The notes beneath the pieces are model-generated. The model had not been told where the DNA came from. It did not search any database and worked only from the letters and a program-made list of their open reading frames with translations. A DNA stretch of 64,000 nucleotides. It comes from Candidatus Altimarinota bacterium. GTDB lineage: Bacteria > Patescibacteriota > Gracilibacteria > UBA4473. The position numbers were made by a program, and so were the translations under genes. This document shows positions 27,071-56,190 of the stretch, one piece after another. The stretch lies in NCBI GenBank assembly GCA_020631075.1, contig JAHDHX010000002.1, positions 62,001 through 126,000 on the forward strand. Direction: 5' to 3'. Positions within the stretch are counted from its first letter, which is position 1. Every line of letters starts with the position of its first letter.

Positions 27071-29482
27071 ATGCGAAACGTTTTGATGCTCGGTTTGGGG
27101 CTGTGTCTGGGCCTGATGTGGCCGGTGGTGGTGTGGGGGCATTTCCTCGATGTGGGGGGAGACCATCCTTACTATAATGCGGTGGAGTACCTCGAAGAGC
27201 GGCAGGTGGTGAAGGGGTACCGCAATGAGGCGGGGAATAAAATCTTTAAGCCTGATGATACGATCACGCGGGTGGCGGCGCTGAAGATCCTCCTGCAGGG
27301 GAGTGAGACGGAAATCTATGACGGGGAAATAGACGGGGACTGGCCAGATGTGATCTGGGACTCGTGGTATGCGCGCTATGTGCGGACGGCGTATCACCGC
27401 AGTGTGATGAAGGGGTATGAAGACGGGACGTTTGGCCCTGAGCGGGCGGTGACGCCCGCGGAATATATGAAGATGTTGGTGCGGGCCTTCGGGGCGGAGG
27501 TTGACCACCTGACCCACCCTGGGGAGTGGTGGGAGGCGTATTGGGAGTGGGGGACGACCAATGAGGTGCTGTTGCCGAGTCTGACCCCGCACCAGCCTTT
27601 GACCCGAGGGGAGCTGGCGGAGATGACCTTCCGCATGGCGCAGCTGAAAACGACTGGGTTTGCCCGCGGGTACACCACGGTGGAAACAGGGGAGGTGAGT
27701 TATTATCACCCTTCGCTGGCGGGGAACTTGACGGCGAATGGGGAGACATATGACCCGCAGGCGATGACGGCTGCGCACCGTACGTTGCCCTTCGGGACGC
27801 GGGTGCGGGTGCGGTACGCTGACCAAGAGATCGTGGTGCGGATCAATGATCGGGGGCCGTTCCACGGGGCGCGGGTGCTGGACCTGTCTGAGGCGGCCTT
27901 TTCGGCTTTGGCGCCTTTGAGTCAGGGGATTATGCAGGTGGAGTATGAAATCATCCGCGAGGAAGCCGCCACGGTGCCGACCGTGGTGGCGGAGGTGCTG
28001 GGGGAGGTGACGGAAACCGACGTGCTGCCAGCGGGGGTAGTAGAAGTGCTGGCGGGGGAGTCGGTGCTGGAAGATAGGACGAATCGGGGGGATAGGCCGT
28101 ATATGGCGGAGCCGATCCTCGTGTATGGGGTGGACCACTATGAGGGGATAGAGTTGCAGGCGGGGCTGCCAGATGTGGTGTACGCCGGGACGGTGCTGCC
28201 CGTGCGGGGGAACCTGCAGGAACGAGGTCACGAGCTGGTGACTTGGTTTGTGCAGGATGAGGCGGGGGAGCAGCTGGCGTACACGATGGAGGTGAGTGGG
28301 ACGAAGTTTGCGGGGCAGTTGCTCTTCCCACAGGTGGGGGAGTACCTAGTGGGAGTAGTGGCGGGCGAGGGGGGACTGTCGCGGATGGCCAAGGTGACGG
28401 TGATAGCGCCCGAGGGTGAGCAGCGGTTTGGCCCGAACGGCAAGCAGTATGCAGAGCGGCTGGTGACGACGCTGTTGCCTGAGCGGGAGGTGGTGGAGTG
28501 GCGCTGGGACGCGCGGGACACGGAAACGATCGCGCGGATAGTGCTGACGCAAGGAGGCGAGCAGTGGCAGCTGCTGGTGGATGGGGGACTGGACGCGGTG
28601 GAGGTGCCGTGGGTGCTGCTGGCGGGGCTGTCGGAGGGGGAACCGCTGGTGGTGAACCTGTGGCTGGCGGAGGCGCGGGAGGGGAAACTGTGGCAGCAGG
28701 AAAGTAACTGGAAGCTGGTCGATGAACTGCGGTATGACCTGCGGCCTGGGCTGGGGGAACAGCGGAGTGACGCGGTGCGGGTGGAGTGGCCGCAGTATGC
28801 GCAACACCCGAGCACGCAGCGGTTGGAGGTGTATCAACTGGATGGAGAGGAAATCATCCGCGAGGAGGTGTCGGTGATCCTCCCCAATGGGCGGGTGGAG
28901 ACGCGGAAGCTGACGCCTGTGTCTGACGGTCACTGGACGCTTGACCTGCCAGTGCGGTCGGGCGGGGGGCACGTGGTGTCTATCCTTGGGCGGGAGTACA
29001 TCCCGCTGTGGCGGGGGGTGATATATGGGCGGGGGGCGGACGAATGGGTGCTGCCCGTGCTGCCGTGGCCGACAGTGCCGCTGATAGACACAATTGCGGG
29101 TGACCACGGCGTCGTCGCCCAGTGGGCGACCGACGCGCGGGCGGCGATGAACGTGGGGGCAATGACCCGTGACGGACGCCTGGACGAAGTGGCGCAGGCG
29201 TATGCGGAAGAACTGGCGCAACGAGGGGTGGTGAGCCACACGGACTGGCGAGGGCGGGGTTTTGCGGAGCGGATGGAGGCGCTGGGGCTGGCGGGGCCGA
29301 TCGCTGAAAACCTCGCGCTGGGGAGTGACCTTGGGCTGGCGCTGCGGTCGCTGGAGACGAGCCCGTCGCACCGCAAGAACTTGATCGATCCGCGGTGGGT
29401 GGCGACGGGGGTGGGGGTGGCGCAGGACAACCGTGGGCTGGTGTATGTGGTGCAGGTGATGCAGGGGGAGACGGTGCGGTAG
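27071..29482 (+). CDS. SLH / RlpA-like / CAP multidomain surface protein
   Basis: 803-aa secreted protein with three recognisable modules. Signal peptide: residues 1-23. SLH motifs: about 24-78, 88-142 and a weaker one to 192. Residues about 206-295 are an RlpA-like double-psi beta-barrel with GEVSYYHPSLAGNLTANGE, HRTLPFGTRVRV and VRINDRGPFHGARVLDLS. In related proteins this fold acts on peptidoglycan as a lytic transglycosylase or binds it. Beta-rich spacer domains follow (about 370-660). The C-terminus (about 670-803) is a CAP/SCP domain with HTDW, AENLALG and SPSHRKNLIDPRWVATGVGVA. The combination suggests a wall-bound remodelling or adhesion protein; activities are inferred from families only. 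Confidence 0.93.
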   Translation: MRNVLMLGLGLCLGLMWPVVVWGHFLDVGGDHPYYNAVEYLEERQVVKGYRNEAGNKIFKPDDTITRVAALKILLQGSETEIYDGEIDGDWPDVIWDSWYARYVRTAYHRSVMKGYEDGTFGPERAVTPAEYMKMLVRAFGAEVDHLTHPGEWWEAYWEWGTTNEVLLPSLTPHQPLTRGELAEMTFRMAQLKTTGFARGYTTVETGEVSYYHPSLAGNLTANGETYDPQAMTAAHRTLPFGTRVRVRYADQEIVVRINDRGPFHGARVLDLSEAAFSALAPLSQGIMQVEYEIIREEAATVPTVVAEVLGEVTETDVLPAGVVEVLAGESVLEDRTNRGDRPYMAEPILVYGVDHYEGIELQAGLPDVVYAGTVLPVRGNLQERGHELVTWFVQDEAGEQLAYTMEVSGTKFAGQLLFPQVGEYLVGVVAGEGGLSRMAKVTVIAPEGEQRFGPNGKQYAERLVTTLLPEREVVEWRWDARDTETIARIVLTQGGEQWQLLVDGGLDAVEVPWVLLAGLSEGEPLVVNLWLAEAREGKLWQQESNWKLVDELRYDLRPGLGEQRSDAVRVEWPQYAQHPSTQRLEVYQLDGEEIIREEVSVILPNGRVETRKLTPVSDGHWTLDLPVRSGGGHVVSILGREYIPLWRGVIYGRGADEWVLPVLPWPTVPLIDTIAGDHGVVAQWATDARAAMNVGAMTRDGRLDEVAQAYAEELAQRGVVSHTDWRGRGFAERMEALGLAGPIAENLALGSDLGLALRSLETSPSHRKNLIDPRWVATGVGVAQDNRGLVYVVQVMQGETVR

Positions 29483-29638: not shown

Positions 29639-32600
29639 TTAGCGCATGAGGTCTTGGCCAGCGTTGAGGGCTTTGATGATGTCGCGGGGGGGGAGGCCGA
29701 GAATGTCTTTATACCACGAGTAGAAGCTGGAGTCTTGGCTGATCAAGCCGAGGGTGCTGTCGAAATAACGGCGGAATTTGGCGGTGAAAGAGGCGCTGGG
29801 CCCTGCGATGACGTTGGCGGCGATAGACCCGCCGTTGGCAAAGGTGAAGGGGGTGTCGGACTCGGGGGAGAGCTGGCTGTCGCCGCTGGCGAAGATGGTG
29901 CGGATTTTATTGATAAGGTTGGCCATGGAGATGGCTTCGACGAGGTTGAATGAGTGGCCTGGGACGCCTGCGATAGACCAGTCGTGGCCTGTGCGCGTGA
30001 GGGTGAGGGCCTGCCCCGCGAGGTCGCCCCGGCTGACGGTGATCTGGGTACCTGAGTTGGGGGTGAGCTGGAGCTGGGTCCAGTCGTTGATGGCGGAGAG
30101 GTCGTCGCCGACTTTTTGGTAGAGGTGGGTGAGCTGGTCAGGCGAAAGGTCGTCGTAGTTGAACTCGGCGGTGGGGGCGTGGTCGGCGGCGGCGGCGATG
30201 GTTTCGTCGGCGAGGGTGCCTTCGGGGGCGGAGAGGGTCTGCCCGTCGATGCCAGTGATGGTGACGGCGAGGGGGTCGCCGTTCTTCACTGTGTAGCGCT
30301 CGACCCCGCCGAGGCTGTCACGGGTGACGCTGAAGGTGAGTTTTGATTTGCACTGGTTGGCGATATTAAAGAGTTCTTCTTCGCTCATTTCTGCCACTTG
30401 TGCGTCGGTGAGGTTGAGCGAGCCGAGGTGTTTGGCCCAGATGGCTTCGTCGTCGGGGGTGGCGAGCTGGAACCCTGTGACGGCGAACTGATTGCGGTGG
30501 TTGAGCGCTTGGATGATGTCGTAGCCATTTTTGACCAGATAGCCGATGTCGTAGGCGTCTTTGACCGTGGCGAGGCCCAGCACCACGGACGCGCCCTGAC
30601 CCGCGTAAGGGACAACGTTGACCAGCAGGGTGCCTGCGCCCTTGGCGACGAGCTTGGCGCCTGATTTCGTGAGGGCGGTTTTGGTGGTTTTTTCGGTGAT
30701 CTGAATGGCGGCGGCTTGGGCGGCCTTCTGCGCGATGACGCGGCCAAGGCGGTTGGCGGACTTGCTTTTGAGGCCCTTGTAGACGGAGGCCTGAAGGAAG
30801 AGCTGGTCGACGTTGGTCATGACTTCGTCGTAGAGGCTGGTGGAGCCTGCGAACTGGGGGAGGACGCTCTCGACCGCGGCGGTGACGGTGTCTTGCCCCA
30901 CGAAGGTGACGGCGGCCCCGACAACCGCGTCCAGCCCGAGGCGCAGGAGGGGATTTTTGACTTTGTCGCCGACGAGCATGTCGGCCGTGACCGCGCCGCC
31001 GAAGTAGGTGGTCATAAAGCCGAGCATTTCGCCGATTTCTTGCTCGCCCGGGTTGCTGGTCTCAGACAGGCGCTGCACCCAGTAGGCGGCGATGCTGGGG
31101 GTGACATTGCGGCGGAGGGACGCGCCGAAGGCTTTGAGCTTGGGCGAGAGTTTGGGGTTTTTGAGGACTTCGTCGGGGGACTGAGGCTGATGACGGACGC
31201 TGCCGTCGGGCTCGGTGGGGGGGCGGTCTTGACCTTCTATTTGGCTTTTGCCTGTCTTTCCGTCAGGAATTTTGCCTTTTTTGGGGGTGCTGCCGTCGGG
31301 CTCTGTAGGAGGGGGCGTTTTTTTGTTTTCGGGGGTGGTGGATGTATTTTTGACTGAATTTTGGGCTTTTTGGGCGGCGCGGCCTAGGCCGCTCCAGCCA
31401 GTCATGGCATTGGGTTTGGCCCAACTTTTGGAGGCGGAGTCGTAGAATTCGACGGCGCTGTCGTGGAGCAGTTTGCGGGCAATCTGCTGGCCGTTTTTGT
31501 CGACGATGTAGCGGTAGTTGCCGTCTTTGCTGAGGCGGCCGCTGAGGGTGGCTTTGATGAGACTGAGGAAGCCTTTGGTGTTGCGGAAGTTGTCAGGGAC
31601 ATTTCGCAGGGCCATGGCGAAGTCGTAGGGGATGGTCAAAAAGTAGGCAGCTGAGCGCCCCAAGGTAGAGACGAGGCTGAAAGACTGGCCCTTAAACACG
31701 CGGGCGGCGGCGCCTTGGCCGAGATTAAACAAAAAGACGGGGAAGAGGCCTGTGCCGTAGGCTTTGACGAGGTTGTCGAGGTCACGGGCGTCGCCGTTAT
31801 TCGTTTCCTTGATGAGGGCGGCCCAGAAATTGACCGTAGCGAGGCCCGAAGCGACAATCTTGGACAAGCCAAAGGTGGCGAGGCTGAGCCCCGTGGCTTT
31901 GGTGGCCATGATAAGTGTGGGGACGCCGTTTTCGTCGGCGACTTGGACGAGGTTTTGTTTGGCGAGGAGCCAAAGAATCTGGCGGCGTTGCTCACCACTG
32001 AATTGGCCGGTGGATTTGAGGGCGGCGAGAAATCGGTCGATGTCTTTGACTTGGCGGTCGGTGAGGTGGATGGACTCGCCGTTGAGCGACTGGTCGCGGA
32101 CGATCTGGTAGAGGGCGCCAGCGAGGGCTTCGTCGAGGGTTTTGCCGTTGAGGATGTCGCCGACGAATGATGAGCTGGCTTCGTATTTTTCAAGGAGGAC
32201 GGTGCGGGCTTCGGTGATGTCTTCGCGGATGCCGTCGCTGTAGAGGTTCAACTTCTGTAGGAGGTCGGCGGCGGTGTCTTTGAATTGCTGTTTGAACCCT
32301 GCGAGTTGAATGGTGAGGGTGCCGAGCTGGTCGATTTTTTCTGACTCGGAGAGGGACTCGTCTGTGGCGGCGGCGGTGTAGGCGGTTTGCCAGTCACTCA
32401 GGGCGGTGTCGGACTCGGTCACGAAGGTCTGGAGGGCGAGGTGGGCTTCGGCCTGGTCAGGGTCGGCGGGGAGCACGCCCAGGCTGGCGGGGATGGCGGT
32501 GAGCCATGATTTGAGCTGGGTGAGGGTCTGTTGCAGAGCGGGGGGGAGCAGCGAATCGCTGGTGGTTTCGGGGTCGGTGGTAGTAGTACTTTCAGAGGCT

Positions 32601-33508
32601 TGATTGGCTGTATCTGTGGCGTCTTCTGAGTCTATTGCTACGTCTGGGGCCGTGTCGGCTGCGTCTAGTGGGGTGGTTGAATCTGGGTCGAGATTTAGCG
32701 CGTCTTTCGCTTTGTCTTTGAGCTCTTGGGCTTTGCTGGTGGCGTCTTGCAGGGCGTCTTGGCCTTGTTTGGCGATGTCGGTGGCTTTGTCTTTGACGGC
32801 TTCGGCTTTTTCAACCACGTCGCCGATGACCTTGCCTGCGCCCAGGCCAGCGACGATGCCCATGAAATACTTCACGACTTTGCCGGCGGTACCTTGCAAT
32901 TTTTGGCCTTGCTCGCGCAGGAAGTCTGTGCCTTTCTGGACGTAGCTGGTGTCGGGCTTGAGGCCGAAGAGTTTGCGCAGGCCGTTGGTGAGAGGGGAGA
33001 AGGCTGTTTTGAGCGCTTCGAGGTAGTTGCCAGCTTTCACACTGCCGACGATGGCTGCGCCCCATGCGGCTGTGCGGGCGGTGAACCCTGCTTCCCCTTC
33101 TTTCTGGGCGTCGGTTTCGATCTTATCAATGGCGGAGTCTATCACCTGACCGGTGGTGGACTCGACCCCGGTGGTGGCGCTGGCGGCCAGGTCGTCGAGG
33201 GGGCTGGCGGTGGTGCTGGCGGCTTCAGCGGTGGTGGATTGGTCGAGCTGGTCGAGTTTTTCTAATTTAGTAAGAGCTTGCTCGATGAGTTTGGTTTGCT
33301 CGGGGGGAGTTTCTTTTTGGGCGAGCTTAAAGGCGAGGTTGGCGTTTTCGAGCTCGATGGCGAGTGTGTCGGTGGCGGCTAGGGTTTCGGCCTTCTGCGT
33401 GGTGAGCTCGTTGATCTTGGCTTCGATGGCGTTGAGTTTGGCTTCGTTGGTGGTGAGGGATTCAACGCTCTGACGGAAACTGGGGCTGGCGGAGGTGGTG
33501 TCGACCAT
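29639..33508 (-). CDS. Very large protein of unknown function (1289 aa)
   Basis: I do not recognise a family. Residues about 1-80 are a charged coiled coil (TTNEAKLNAIEAKINELTTQKAET). A Ser/Thr-rich linker follows, then hydrophobic Gly/Ala helices (WGAAIVGSVKAG, FMGIVAGLGAGKVIGDVV), a second helical and acidic linker region, and further hydrophobic stretches (FGLSKIVASGLATVNFWAAL, LFPVFLFNLGQG, VTADMLVGDK ... VVGAAVTFVGQ). A short Pro-rich segment repeats PPTEPDGS twice (near residues 735-775). The C-terminal quarter looks like small folded domains (LNLTDAQVAEMSEEELFNIA; LSPDQLTHLYQKVGDDLSAI). No signal peptide is seen. A TATAAT on the minus strand lies about 30 bp before the ATG. The frame is intact for 3.9 kb, so it is certainly expressed or recently was. 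Confidence 0.85.
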   Translation of the reverse strand: MVDTTSASPSFRQSVESLTTNEAKLNAIEAKINELTTQKAETLAATDTLAIELENANLAFKLAQKETPPEQTKLIEQALTKLEKLDQLDQSTTAEAASTTASPLDDLAASATTGVESTTGQVIDSAIDKIETDAQKEGEAGFTARTAAWGAAIVGSVKAGNYLEALKTAFSPLTNGLRKLFGLKPDTSYVQKGTDFLREQGQKLQGTAGKVVKYFMGIVAGLGAGKVIGDVVEKAEAVKDKATDIAKQGQDALQDATSKAQELKDKAKDALNLDPDSTTPLDAADTAPDVAIDSEDATDTANQASESTTTTDPETTSDSLLPPALQQTLTQLKSWLTAIPASLGVLPADPDQAEAHLALQTFVTESDTALSDWQTAYTAAATDESLSESEKIDQLGTLTIQLAGFKQQFKDTAADLLQKLNLYSDGIREDITEARTVLLEKYEASSSFVGDILNGKTLDEALAGALYQIVRDQSLNGESIHLTDRQVKDIDRFLAALKSTGQFSGEQRRQILWLLAKQNLVQVADENGVPTLIMATKATGLSLATFGLSKIVASGLATVNFWAALIKETNNGDARDLDNLVKAYGTGLFPVFLFNLGQGAAARVFKGQSFSLVSTLGRSAAYFLTIPYDFAMALRNVPDNFRNTKGFLSLIKATLSGRLSKDGNYRYIVDKNGQQIARKLLHDSAVEFYDSASKSWAKPNAMTGWSGLGRAAQKAQNSVKNTSTTPENKKTPPPTEPDGSTPKKGKIPDGKTGKSQIEGQDRPPTEPDGSVRHQPQSPDEVLKNPKLSPKLKAFGASLRRNVTPSIAAYWVQRLSETSNPGEQEIGEMLGFMTTYFGGAVTADMLVGDKVKNPLLRLGLDAVVGAAVTFVGQDTVTAAVESVLPQFAGSTSLYDEVMTNVDQLFLQASVYKGLKSKSANRLGRVIAQKAAQAAAIQITEKTTKTALTKSGAKLVAKGAGTLLVNVVPYAGQGASVVLGLATVKDAYDIGYLVKNGYDIIQALNHRNQFAVTGFQLATPDDEAIWAKHLGSLNLTDAQVAEMSEEELFNIANQCKSKLTFSVTRDSLGGVERYTVKNGDPLAVTITGIDGQTLSAPEGTLADETIAAAADHAPTAEFNYDDLSPDQLTHLYQKVGDDLSAINDWTQLQLTPNSGTQITVSRGDLAGQALTLTRTGHDWSIAGVPGHSFNLVEAISMANLINKIRTIFASGDSQLSPESDTPFTFANGGSIAANVIAGPSASFTAKFRRYFDSTLGLISQDSSFYSWYKDILGLPPRDIIKALNAGQDLMR

Positions 33509-33787: not shown

Positions 33788-34753
33788 CTATTGCGGGAGG
33801 TGCTGGTGGAGGTGGCCGCCTGGGCGTTGCATTTTCTTGATGGCTTTTTGGCGGTTGACGGAGATGTGGTGGACGACGTCGTGCGGGTTGGGGGCTTCGG
33901 TGAAGTGGAGGGTGCCCTGCTGGGAGGCGGTTTCGATCTGGACCTCGCCGATGCCGAAGAGCCAGTTGAACACGCCGTGGGAGCTGGGGGCGACATTGGT
34001 GATGGCTTCGTAGTGGATTTCGTTGGCGCTGGCGCCGAAGATCTCGCGGTCTTGGACAATTATGCGGCGGTTGGTGACGTAGATGACGTCGAACTGGAAG
34101 TCTATCCAGGCTTTGATGAAAAAGATGCCTGCGAAGGCGAAGCAGAGCACGGTGAAGGCGAACCCGAGCCGATGCGGGTAGGTGTAGGCCAAGACGCCGA
34201 GCCCCGTGCTGAGAAACACCAGTGGCATGATGAGGCCGATGATAAAGATGAGGGGGTGCTTCTGAATAACGCGTTCGACGCGTTCGTTGGACATGGCCTT
34301 AAAGGTACCGTGCTGTTCTTGTTCTTTGATCTGGCGGATGGCGATCTCTTCGATGCCGTGGAGTTTGACGAGCTTGAGGATGCGAAGAATACGGAGGAGG
34401 AGGAAGACCTCAAAGTAGTGCTGGAGCCCCAGTGCCGACAGGGCGCCGAGCCGTGACAAGTAGAAAGGAAGAATGGCGACGAGGTCGATGAGGCCCCACC
34501 AGCTGAGGACATACCGCGAGGGGCGGTCAGACGACCAGATGCGCAGGATGTACTCGATGGTGAAAATGCTGACGGCGATGCGGTCGAAGAAGTAGAGCGG
34601 GCCTTGGGCGCTGTCGAGCCCTGGGACCAAGTGCAGGGGGATGACGGCGATCGATAAGATGATCATAAAGGCGATGACGCCGTTGACGAGGCGGGCCTTA
34701 GGGTCGGTGACGACGTGGAAGCTCTCGTGCACGAATTGTCGGAGGGCACTCAT
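33788..34753 (-). CDS. Voltage-sensor domain fused to a bacterial PH domain
   Basis: 321-aa membrane protein with an unusual architecture. Residues 22-132 match a voltage-sensor of the ion-transport family: S1 about 22-40, S2 with FTIEYILRIWS (charge-transfer Phe/Glu), S3 with LIDLVAILPFYL, and S4 LLLRILRILKLVKL with R121, R124, K127 and K130 every third residue. No pore helix or selectivity filter follows. Instead there is an amphipathic linker, a two-helix hairpin (about 167-215) and a bPH_2-type domain (about 221-300) with VIYVTNRRIIVQDREIFG and IHYEAITNV. It may be a voltage-responsive regulator rather than a channel; that is inference. ATG at 34753. Confidence 0.85.
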   Translation of the reverse strand: MSALRQFVHESFHVVTDPKARLVNGVIAFMIILSIAVIPLHLVPGLDSAQGPLYFFDRIAVSIFTIEYILRIWSSDRPSRYVLSWWGLIDLVAILPFYLSRLGALSALGLQHYFEVFLLLRILRILKLVKLHGIEEIAIRQIKEQEQHGTFKAMSNERVERVIQKHPLIFIIGLIMPLVFLSTGLGVLAYTYPHRLGFAFTVLCFAFAGIFFIKAWIDFQFDVIYVTNRRIIVQDREIFGASANEIHYEAITNVAPSSHGVFNWLFGIGEVQIETASQQGTLHFTEAPNPHDVVHHISVNRQKAIKKMQRPGGHLHQHLPQ

Positions 34754-34849: not shown

Positions 34850-34981
34850 ATGAGGGTGATGAAGCTGAGCAATGTGCCGATTGTCGGGGATATATATGAG
34901 GCGATAAAGGAGCGTCCGTTTGTCAGTGCGCTGGTGGCGCTGGTGACGCTGGAGGTTTTTGACGTGATAGATGTGCTGTAG
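34850..34981 (+). CDS. Possible 43-aa membrane peptide
   Basis: Short frame starting at the ATG at 34850 (MRVMKLSNVPIVGDIYEAIKER) with a hydrophobic C-terminal half (FVSALVALVTLEVFDVIDVL). Its stop codon is formed at the edge of the palindromic element that begins at 34981, so the natural end may have been altered. A family cannot be assigned at this length. It may equally be non-coding. Confidence 0.35.
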   Translation: MRVMKLSNVPIVGDIYEAIKERPFVSALVALVTLEVFDVIDVL

Positions 34982-35171
34982 GTAGTGTTAACAAATTGGA
35001 AAAAACAGGTTGATACTGAAATATAAGGAGTGATTTGAGTGAAAAAAGAATCTTTTTGGCTGCAAAATGGTGGCGCATTTTTGCCTTGATCCATCAAGGC
35101 GGCAAATACGCGCCCATTTTTCGCTCAAAAATATCTCTTTTTTCTCCTCAAACCAATTTGTGAACACTACC
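34981..35171. mobile_element. About 190-bp palindromic MITE, family 2, copy A
   Basis: The ends GGTAGTGTTAACAAATTGG and CCAATTTGTGAACACTACC are inverted repeats with one mismatch, flanked by TA on both sides (34979-34980 and 35172-35173). The whole element folds as one long imperfect hairpin with the core GCCTTGAT-CC-ATCAAGGC. No coding capacity. Copy B is at 55929. It sits upstream of the DUF389 gene, with the promoter at 35237 just outside it. Confidence 0.88.
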
Positions 35172-35236
35172 TAGGCGGTAGAGGGGTGAGGGAATATAAG
35201 AGGAAGCGGGGTGTGGAGTTTTTGTCGTGGGTGGAT

Positions 35237-55854: not shown

Positions 55855-55928
55855 GTTTGTGTGTAAGTTTGTCAGTTATCAGTGTATTATACCCCAAAGT
55901 GGCCGCCAAATGCGAGGGGAAGAAATTC

Positions 55929-56118
55929 GGGAGTGTTCACAAATTGGAAAAGTAGATTGATCCTGAAATATAAGGAGGGATTTGAGTGGAAAAAGAATCT
56001 TTTTGGCTGCAAAATGGTGGCGCATTTTTGCCTTGATCCATCAAGGCGGCAAATACGCGCCCATTTTTCGCTCAAAAATCTCTCTTTTTTCTTCTCAAAC
56101 CAATTTGTTCACACTCCC
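55929..56118. mobile_element. About 190-bp palindromic MITE, family 2, copy B
   Basis: The ends GGGAGTGTTCACAAATTGG and CCAATTTGTTCACACTCCC are inverted repeats with two mismatches. The central 130 bp is almost the same as copy A at 34981, including the GCCTTGAT/ATCAAGGC hairpin. Flanks are TC and TA, so a TA duplication is not intact. It lies between the divergent P-type ATPase and LysE-type genes, upstream of both. Confidence 0.88.
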
Positions 56119-56190
56119 TAGCTTAGTGAGGACTTGCATGAGGGGGGAGAAGAATTAGAGTGAGTGAAAAAACTTCTGAAGCAAAAAAAT

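Follow-up and report, generated by a model that had tools for sequence, protein, structure and literature searches.

In bacteria and archaea, voltage-sensor domains (VSDs) have been described as parts of ion channels. A 2023 review concluded from database searches that no prokaryotic VSD is known without an attached K+, Na+ or Ca2+ pore, and gave RxWRxxR as the S4 motif of the voltage-sensor proton channel Hv1 (PMC10377628). Pore-less sensors are known from eukaryotes. In Ci-VSP the VSD is followed by a phosphatase, and the linker between them is a precedent for coupling of S4 to an effector (PMC4322731). Bacterial PH (PHb) domains have been studied separately. They oligomerise in crystals through exposed strand edges (PMC2817789); in DdE/DdF, PHb pairs act together, and PHb proteins of the YdbS/DdE kind are needed for the export of a leaderless bacteriocin (PMC8657885). 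Here we describe a protein family in which a VSD is fused to a PHb protein of this kind. Judged by its sequences, in which the sensor residues are kept, the VSD-PHb family is a conserved counter-example to the statement of the review, and searches of the open-access literature brought up no earlier description of a bacterial pore-less VSD or of a VSD-PHb fusion. An initial reading of the DNA made from the sequence alone, referred to below as the sequence-only reading, had called the arrangement unusual for bacteria, a judgement that the review bears out.

The window, that is the whole stretch of DNA analysed, comprises 64,000 nucleotides from a Candidatus Altimarinota bacterium, whose genome (1.46 Mb, 50 contigs) is 95.9% complete. 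The gene is a single ORF at 33788-34753 on the minus strand and encodes 321 amino acids; the sequence-only reading had given these limits exactly and had left the strand unstated. TGA is a stop in the window; certain related families within its class have stretches in which TGA is read through, as is the case in Gracilibacteria/Absconditabacteria, and the class is probably one of the Patescibacteria (CPR) that takes in those lineages. A chance ORF or an artefact is ruled out by orthologues in 32 genomes; the gene lies far beyond chance because full-length orthologues with 27-51% identity are found across four families of the class, labelled f1 (the window's), f5, f158 and f159. Pfam assigns residues 22-130 to Ion_trans (E=1e-15), at profile positions 3-110 of 241 and thus S1-S4 only, and residues 225-297 to bPH_2 (E=2.5e-5, above the cut-off). 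Ion_trans is matched in all 29 full-length members and bPH_2, a weak Pfam model, in 16 of them; besides Ion_trans and bPH families, Pfam reports among the 29 only a weak YlaC match in two. Rfam gave no RNA element near the gene. The features, with their basis in brackets, are these:

33788-34753, minus strand: VSD-2TM-PHb fusion gene, 321 aa (single ORF; Pfam Ion_trans and bPH_2; orthologues)
34646-34702, minus strand: S1 helix, residues 18-36 (AlphaFold2; S1 acid count over 29 members)
34532-34615, minus strand: S2 helix, residues 47-74, with D57, F64 and E67 (AlphaFold2; conservation 29/29)
34451-34501, minus strand: S3 helix, residues 85-101, with D90 (AlphaFold2; D90 in 29/29)
34322-34423, minus strand: S4 and its cytoplasmic extension, residues 111-144, with R121, R124, K127 and K130 (AlphaFold2; conservation)
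34262-34279, minus strand: strand ahead of the hairpin, residues 159-164 (AlphaFold2 DSSP)
34091-34231, minus strand: transmembrane hairpin, residues 175-221 (AlphaFold2; homology to the hairpin of free-standing 2TM-PHb proteins)
33827-34087, minus strand: PHb (bPH_2) barrel strands and C-terminal helix, residues 223-309 (Pfam bPH_2 225-297; Foldseek 3dcx and 3hsa)

The AlphaFold2 model of the window protein, built with 29 family sequences, has a pLDDT of 90.5 and a pTM of 0.85. It presents a four-helix VSD, a 34-residue S4 helix that includes the cytoplasmic extension without a break, a strand, a tight two-helix hairpin and the remainder of the PHb barrel. The hairpin helices (175-191 and 195-221) are joined by a short turn without a re-entrant loop, and the PHb strands span residues 223-288, with the C-terminal helix after them. 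In the model, strand 159-164 probably joins the barrel as its first strand. A second model, made from nine f5-type sequences for an f5 member about 30% identical to the window protein, shows the same order of elements (pLDDT 78, pTM 0.73), with the equivalent strand at 153-157. Foldseek with the window model retrieved Kv channels, Kv2.1 being the best of them (E=1e-4), as well as 3dcx and 3hsa, which are bacterial PH structures (E=2e-4); a profile search of solved structures placed Kv4.3 at the top (E=1.7e-20). Over the whole chain the rmsd to the Kv channels is large, as it should be if the VSD is all that is shared.

Sensor residues were counted over the 29 full-length members. The outer acid of S2 (D/E57) and each residue of the charge-transfer centre, F64, E67 and D90, are present in 29/29; R124 is found in 28 and a basic residue at 127 in all, and at least three basic S4 residues at every third position occur in 28. 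In the window protein this series is R121, R124, K127 and K130. In the numbering of the Kv gating charges R1-R6, alignment to Kv2.1 equates these residues with R3, R4, K5 and R6, and R1 and R2 with E115 and L118. As the outermost two gating-charge positions are thus missing in the window protein (P0001), the total gating charge may be small. The f5 S4 has three arginines and a lysine, one step further out than in the window family. The single exception to the S4 pattern is L069, the VSD-PHb orthologue of genome G531, in which R121 is replaced by L and R124 by Q; with two of the three core S4 charges gone, sensing may be dispensable in L069, which constitutes a natural test of the need for voltage sensing. 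S1 is devoid of an internal acid in 27 members, the other two having one D at its cytoplasmic end, and the central position 34 is S in 28, T in one and an acid in none of the 29. By every sequence test applied the N-terminal half is a true Kv-type VSD, and it may respond to voltage. The sequence-only reading is upheld on these points: S1-S4 are complete (Ion_trans match, Kv4.3 profile, Kv2.1 in Foldseek), the Kv-like S2 motif FTIEYILRIWS occupies residues 64-74, D90 is the aspartate noted in S3, and the four basic residues of S4 are those listed above. Profiles do not assign the N-terminus to an unrelated four-helix family, the outcome of which that reading had warned, and the model is a voltage-sensor bundle.

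The absence of a pore loop, also proposed from the sequence, was confirmed: a TxGYG-like filter is found in none of the 29 members and in 8 of 11 channel or VSD-only comparison proteins, and the tight hairpin of the model has no re-entrant loop. The two helices and the bPH_2 domain that had been recognised downstream are both there, and their description can be refined: together with a first strand, after which the hairpin is inserted, they make up an entire YdbS-like 2TM-PHb protein, which forms the C-terminal half. Searched with an HMM of this half, other CPR genomes gave 20 free-standing 2TM-PHb proteins, most of them matched over the full length of the HMM and the best at 3e-29. The corresponding VSD HMM matches channels at 1e-30; there are no cross-matches between the C-half HMM and channels or between the VSD HMM and free PHb proteins. 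A degenerate Kv channel is ruled out by the homology of the hairpin to that of free 2TM-PHb proteins, by the failure of the C-half HMM to match channels and by the missing filter motif. In a tree of the C-half all 29 fusions form one clade (support 98/89), and in the VSD tree they fall on one side of a branch (71/85; 93/84 without four long branches). Both halves group as one clade, which fits a single fusion but falls short of proof for the VSD half. The free PHb proteins compared were drawn from matches to P0001 and sample PHb diversity in part.

How does the fusion relate to the described systems? It resembles the Kv VSD (Kv2.1/Kv4) in its S1-S4 fold, its F-E-D centre, the outer acid of S2 and the basic residues at every third position of S4. 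Unlike Kv, it has no S5-P-S6 pore, the outer one or two S4 charges are missing, and S4 leads into a PHb protein, not into an S4-S5 linker. Membership among Kv channels was rejected on the lack of a pore, on the absence of TxGYG in 29/29 and on the short turn of the modelled hairpin. With 2TM-PHb proteins of the YdbS/DdE type (bPH_2, COG3402) it shares a short N-terminal strand, a transmembrane hairpin and a PHb barrel, but it differs from them in its N-terminal VSD and, usually, in having no adjoining YdbT-like multi-PHb gene. The likeness to Ci-VSP, in which S4 likewise links a VSD lacking a pore to a cytoplasmic domain that is not a channel, is an analogy of working; in contrast to Ci-VSP, the fusion is bacterial and has an anchored PHb effector in place of a phosphatase domain, and outside the VSD fold no sequence relationship between the two was detected. 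Pfam found no PTEN-like phosphatase domain in the 29 members, and membership among VSPs was rejected. Hv1 is likewise a VSD without a pore, but the fusion has neither its S1 aspartate/glutamate selectivity residue nor its S4 motif. Membership was rejected on both: the central S1 position, presumably equivalent to D112 of Hv1, is S or T in 29/29, RxWRxxR/K is absent and no S4 of the 29 members contains W. A close analogy to Hv1, which the sequence-only reading had named among the pore-less sensors, is not supported for the same two reasons, and overall the interpretation given in that reading is partly supported.

An alignment-based search found the fusion in 32 of 353 genomes of the class, a match-table count that includes three copies cut by contig ends. 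The fusion occurs in 18/20 of family f1, in nine of f5, in four of f158 and in one of f159. In a sample of 380 genomes of the phylum five pass E<=1e-30, all from the window's class, and the fusion was found in none outside it. The Ion_trans matches in 287 phylum genomes comprise full channels, pore-only proteins, the VSD-PHb family and two small VSD-only proteins. A genome collection scanned with one protein yielded a single full-length relative, whose sequence is the same as that of L048. A viral or plasmid origin was dismissed, as phages, plasmids and viral contigs contain no full-length match; matches to viral structures involve the PHb part only or are meaningless. Three genomes (G166, G188 and G234) carry the fusion and have no Kv match at E<=1e-6, so the fusion can act without a detectable Kv channel.

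At f1 loci dnaK usually lies head-to-head with the fusion gene and a large poorly conserved gene tail-to-tail. The window locus has no adjoining dnaK, and a divergent DUF389 gene is located upstream. At four f5 loci a dGTPase-like HD gene closely precedes the fusion gene, and in two f158 genomes the fusion gene is followed after 4-9 bp by a free 2TM-PHb gene, an arrangement that suggests a PHb-PHb partnership. Across the f1, f5 and f158 neighbourhoods no operon partner is common to all; nor does a YdbT-like partner adjoin the fusion, the only adjoining free PHb gene, that of f158, being single-PHb. The lack of a common partner indicates that the protein probably works by itself, or perhaps together with PHb partners, and means that the neighbourhood does not pin the output. 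In the window genome there is one bPH_2 match only, by a weak model that may miss divergent PHb proteins.

We propose that the fusion is a pore-less voltage-sensor protein, conserved in one CPR class, that acts through an S4-driven, voltage-dependent PHb contact, a reading that we hold with even confidence. By analogy with the wider family, a change in membrane potential would move the S4 charges through the F64/E67/D90 constriction. The long cytoplasmic extension would travel along with S4 and tug the first PHb strand, while the hairpin would hold the PHb domain at the membrane. In the model the S4 helix continues to about residue 144, some 15 residues before the hairpin-pinned strand, and S4 motion should therefore shift the pose of the barrel. 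This pull would alter the packing of the PHb domain with itself, with a partner PHb domain or with other proteins, so that the protein would answer voltage with a change of protein contacts on the inner side of the membrane and not with an ion current. Given that PHb domains oligomerise and that DdE and DdF pair, a voltage-dependent PHb contact would be the most economical output. Our leading guess for the physiological role is a control of assembly or transport of the YdbS/DdE kind. The protein might, with rather less assurance, be the first prokaryotic voltage-controlled non-channel protein, a bacterial VSP analogue in which the potential directly controls a PH-like domain. If voltage is sensed, voltage-to-protein signalling free of ion flow arose in bacteria independently of Ci-VSP. 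The family would then provide mechanistic work and protein engineering with a voltage sensor that is small and whose output is not a channel, and PHb proteins of unassigned function would gain a possible regulated state to assay.

The charges of the VSD could be kept for folding instead of sensing. The domain might be a non-sensing scaffold, a Kv-derived anchor or oligomerisation module, leaving the YdbS-like half to do the work; we regard this as unlikely, although it is the most serious rival. The loss of core S4 charges in L069, the absence of outer S4 charges and the self-sufficiency of the C-half module elsewhere all agree with a scaffold, but the 2TM-PHb half is already anchored in the membrane, which makes an extra anchor needless, and neither the buried charges nor the charge-transfer centre vary among members down to ~27-30% identity. 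There is a small chance that the VSD conducts protons or cations, in the manner of Hv1 or of the isolated Shaker VSD, and that the PHb half regulates or assembles it. The Shaker VSD becomes a proton-preferring cation channel when severed from its pore (PMC5092046), and the missing outer S4 charges could leave the gating pore open. Against conduction, no member has an acid in mid-S1, where position 34 is S or T in 29/29, and S4 is without RxWRxxR; moreover, a proton leak would be costly for a small cell, and prokaryotes are stated to have no Hv channels (PMC10377628).

Smaller still is the chance that the fusion works in export or immunity, as a factor of the YdbS/DdE kind whose VSD senses depolarisation by membrane-active peptides. 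Its C-half is YdbS-like, with 2TM and one PHb (PMC8657885), and the free PHb gene adjoining the fusion in f158 would fit; however, a bacteriocin, ABC-transporter or YdbT gene is not among its conserved neighbours, and the weak bPH_2 model gives no second match in the window genome. An auxiliary or silent subunit of the genome's own 6TM Kv channel is very improbable: the window genome does encode a Kv channel (G000:C45), but the three fusion-bearing genomes without a Kv match at E<=1e-6 argue against such a role.

A few further observations were made in passing. Two VSD-only proteins from other CPR families (L160:1501-1803 and L156:1501-1851; genomes G094 and G179), with an open frame of ~144-150 aa, have S4 basic residues and neither pore nor PHb domain; they form another type of putative bacterial voltage sensor that lacks a pore. 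In genome G129 a six-helix Ion_trans protein (L145/L015) has LLGGVSLY in the filter region instead of TVGYGD; the protein is channel-like and its pore degenerate. An 827-codon open frame at G393:C35:2158-4413 has at least four bPH_2 matches and is a YdbT-like multi-PHb protein; its genome also has the fusion. In the window, the minus-strand ORF adjoining the fusion gene (29639-33508, 1289 aa) has no Pfam match, and large poorly conserved ORFs hold the same place in relatives. A protein of 803 aa encoded on the plus strand at 27071-29482 looks exported and combines S-layer homology, lytic-transglycosylase-like DPBB and CAP domains. Finally, a MITE-like element of 195 bp, whose terminal inverted repeats measure 21 bp, is present at 34979-35173, between the fusion gene and the divergent DUF389 gene, and again at 55927-56120; the genome contains 24 matches to it, of which 21 are near full length with identities of 86-100%.
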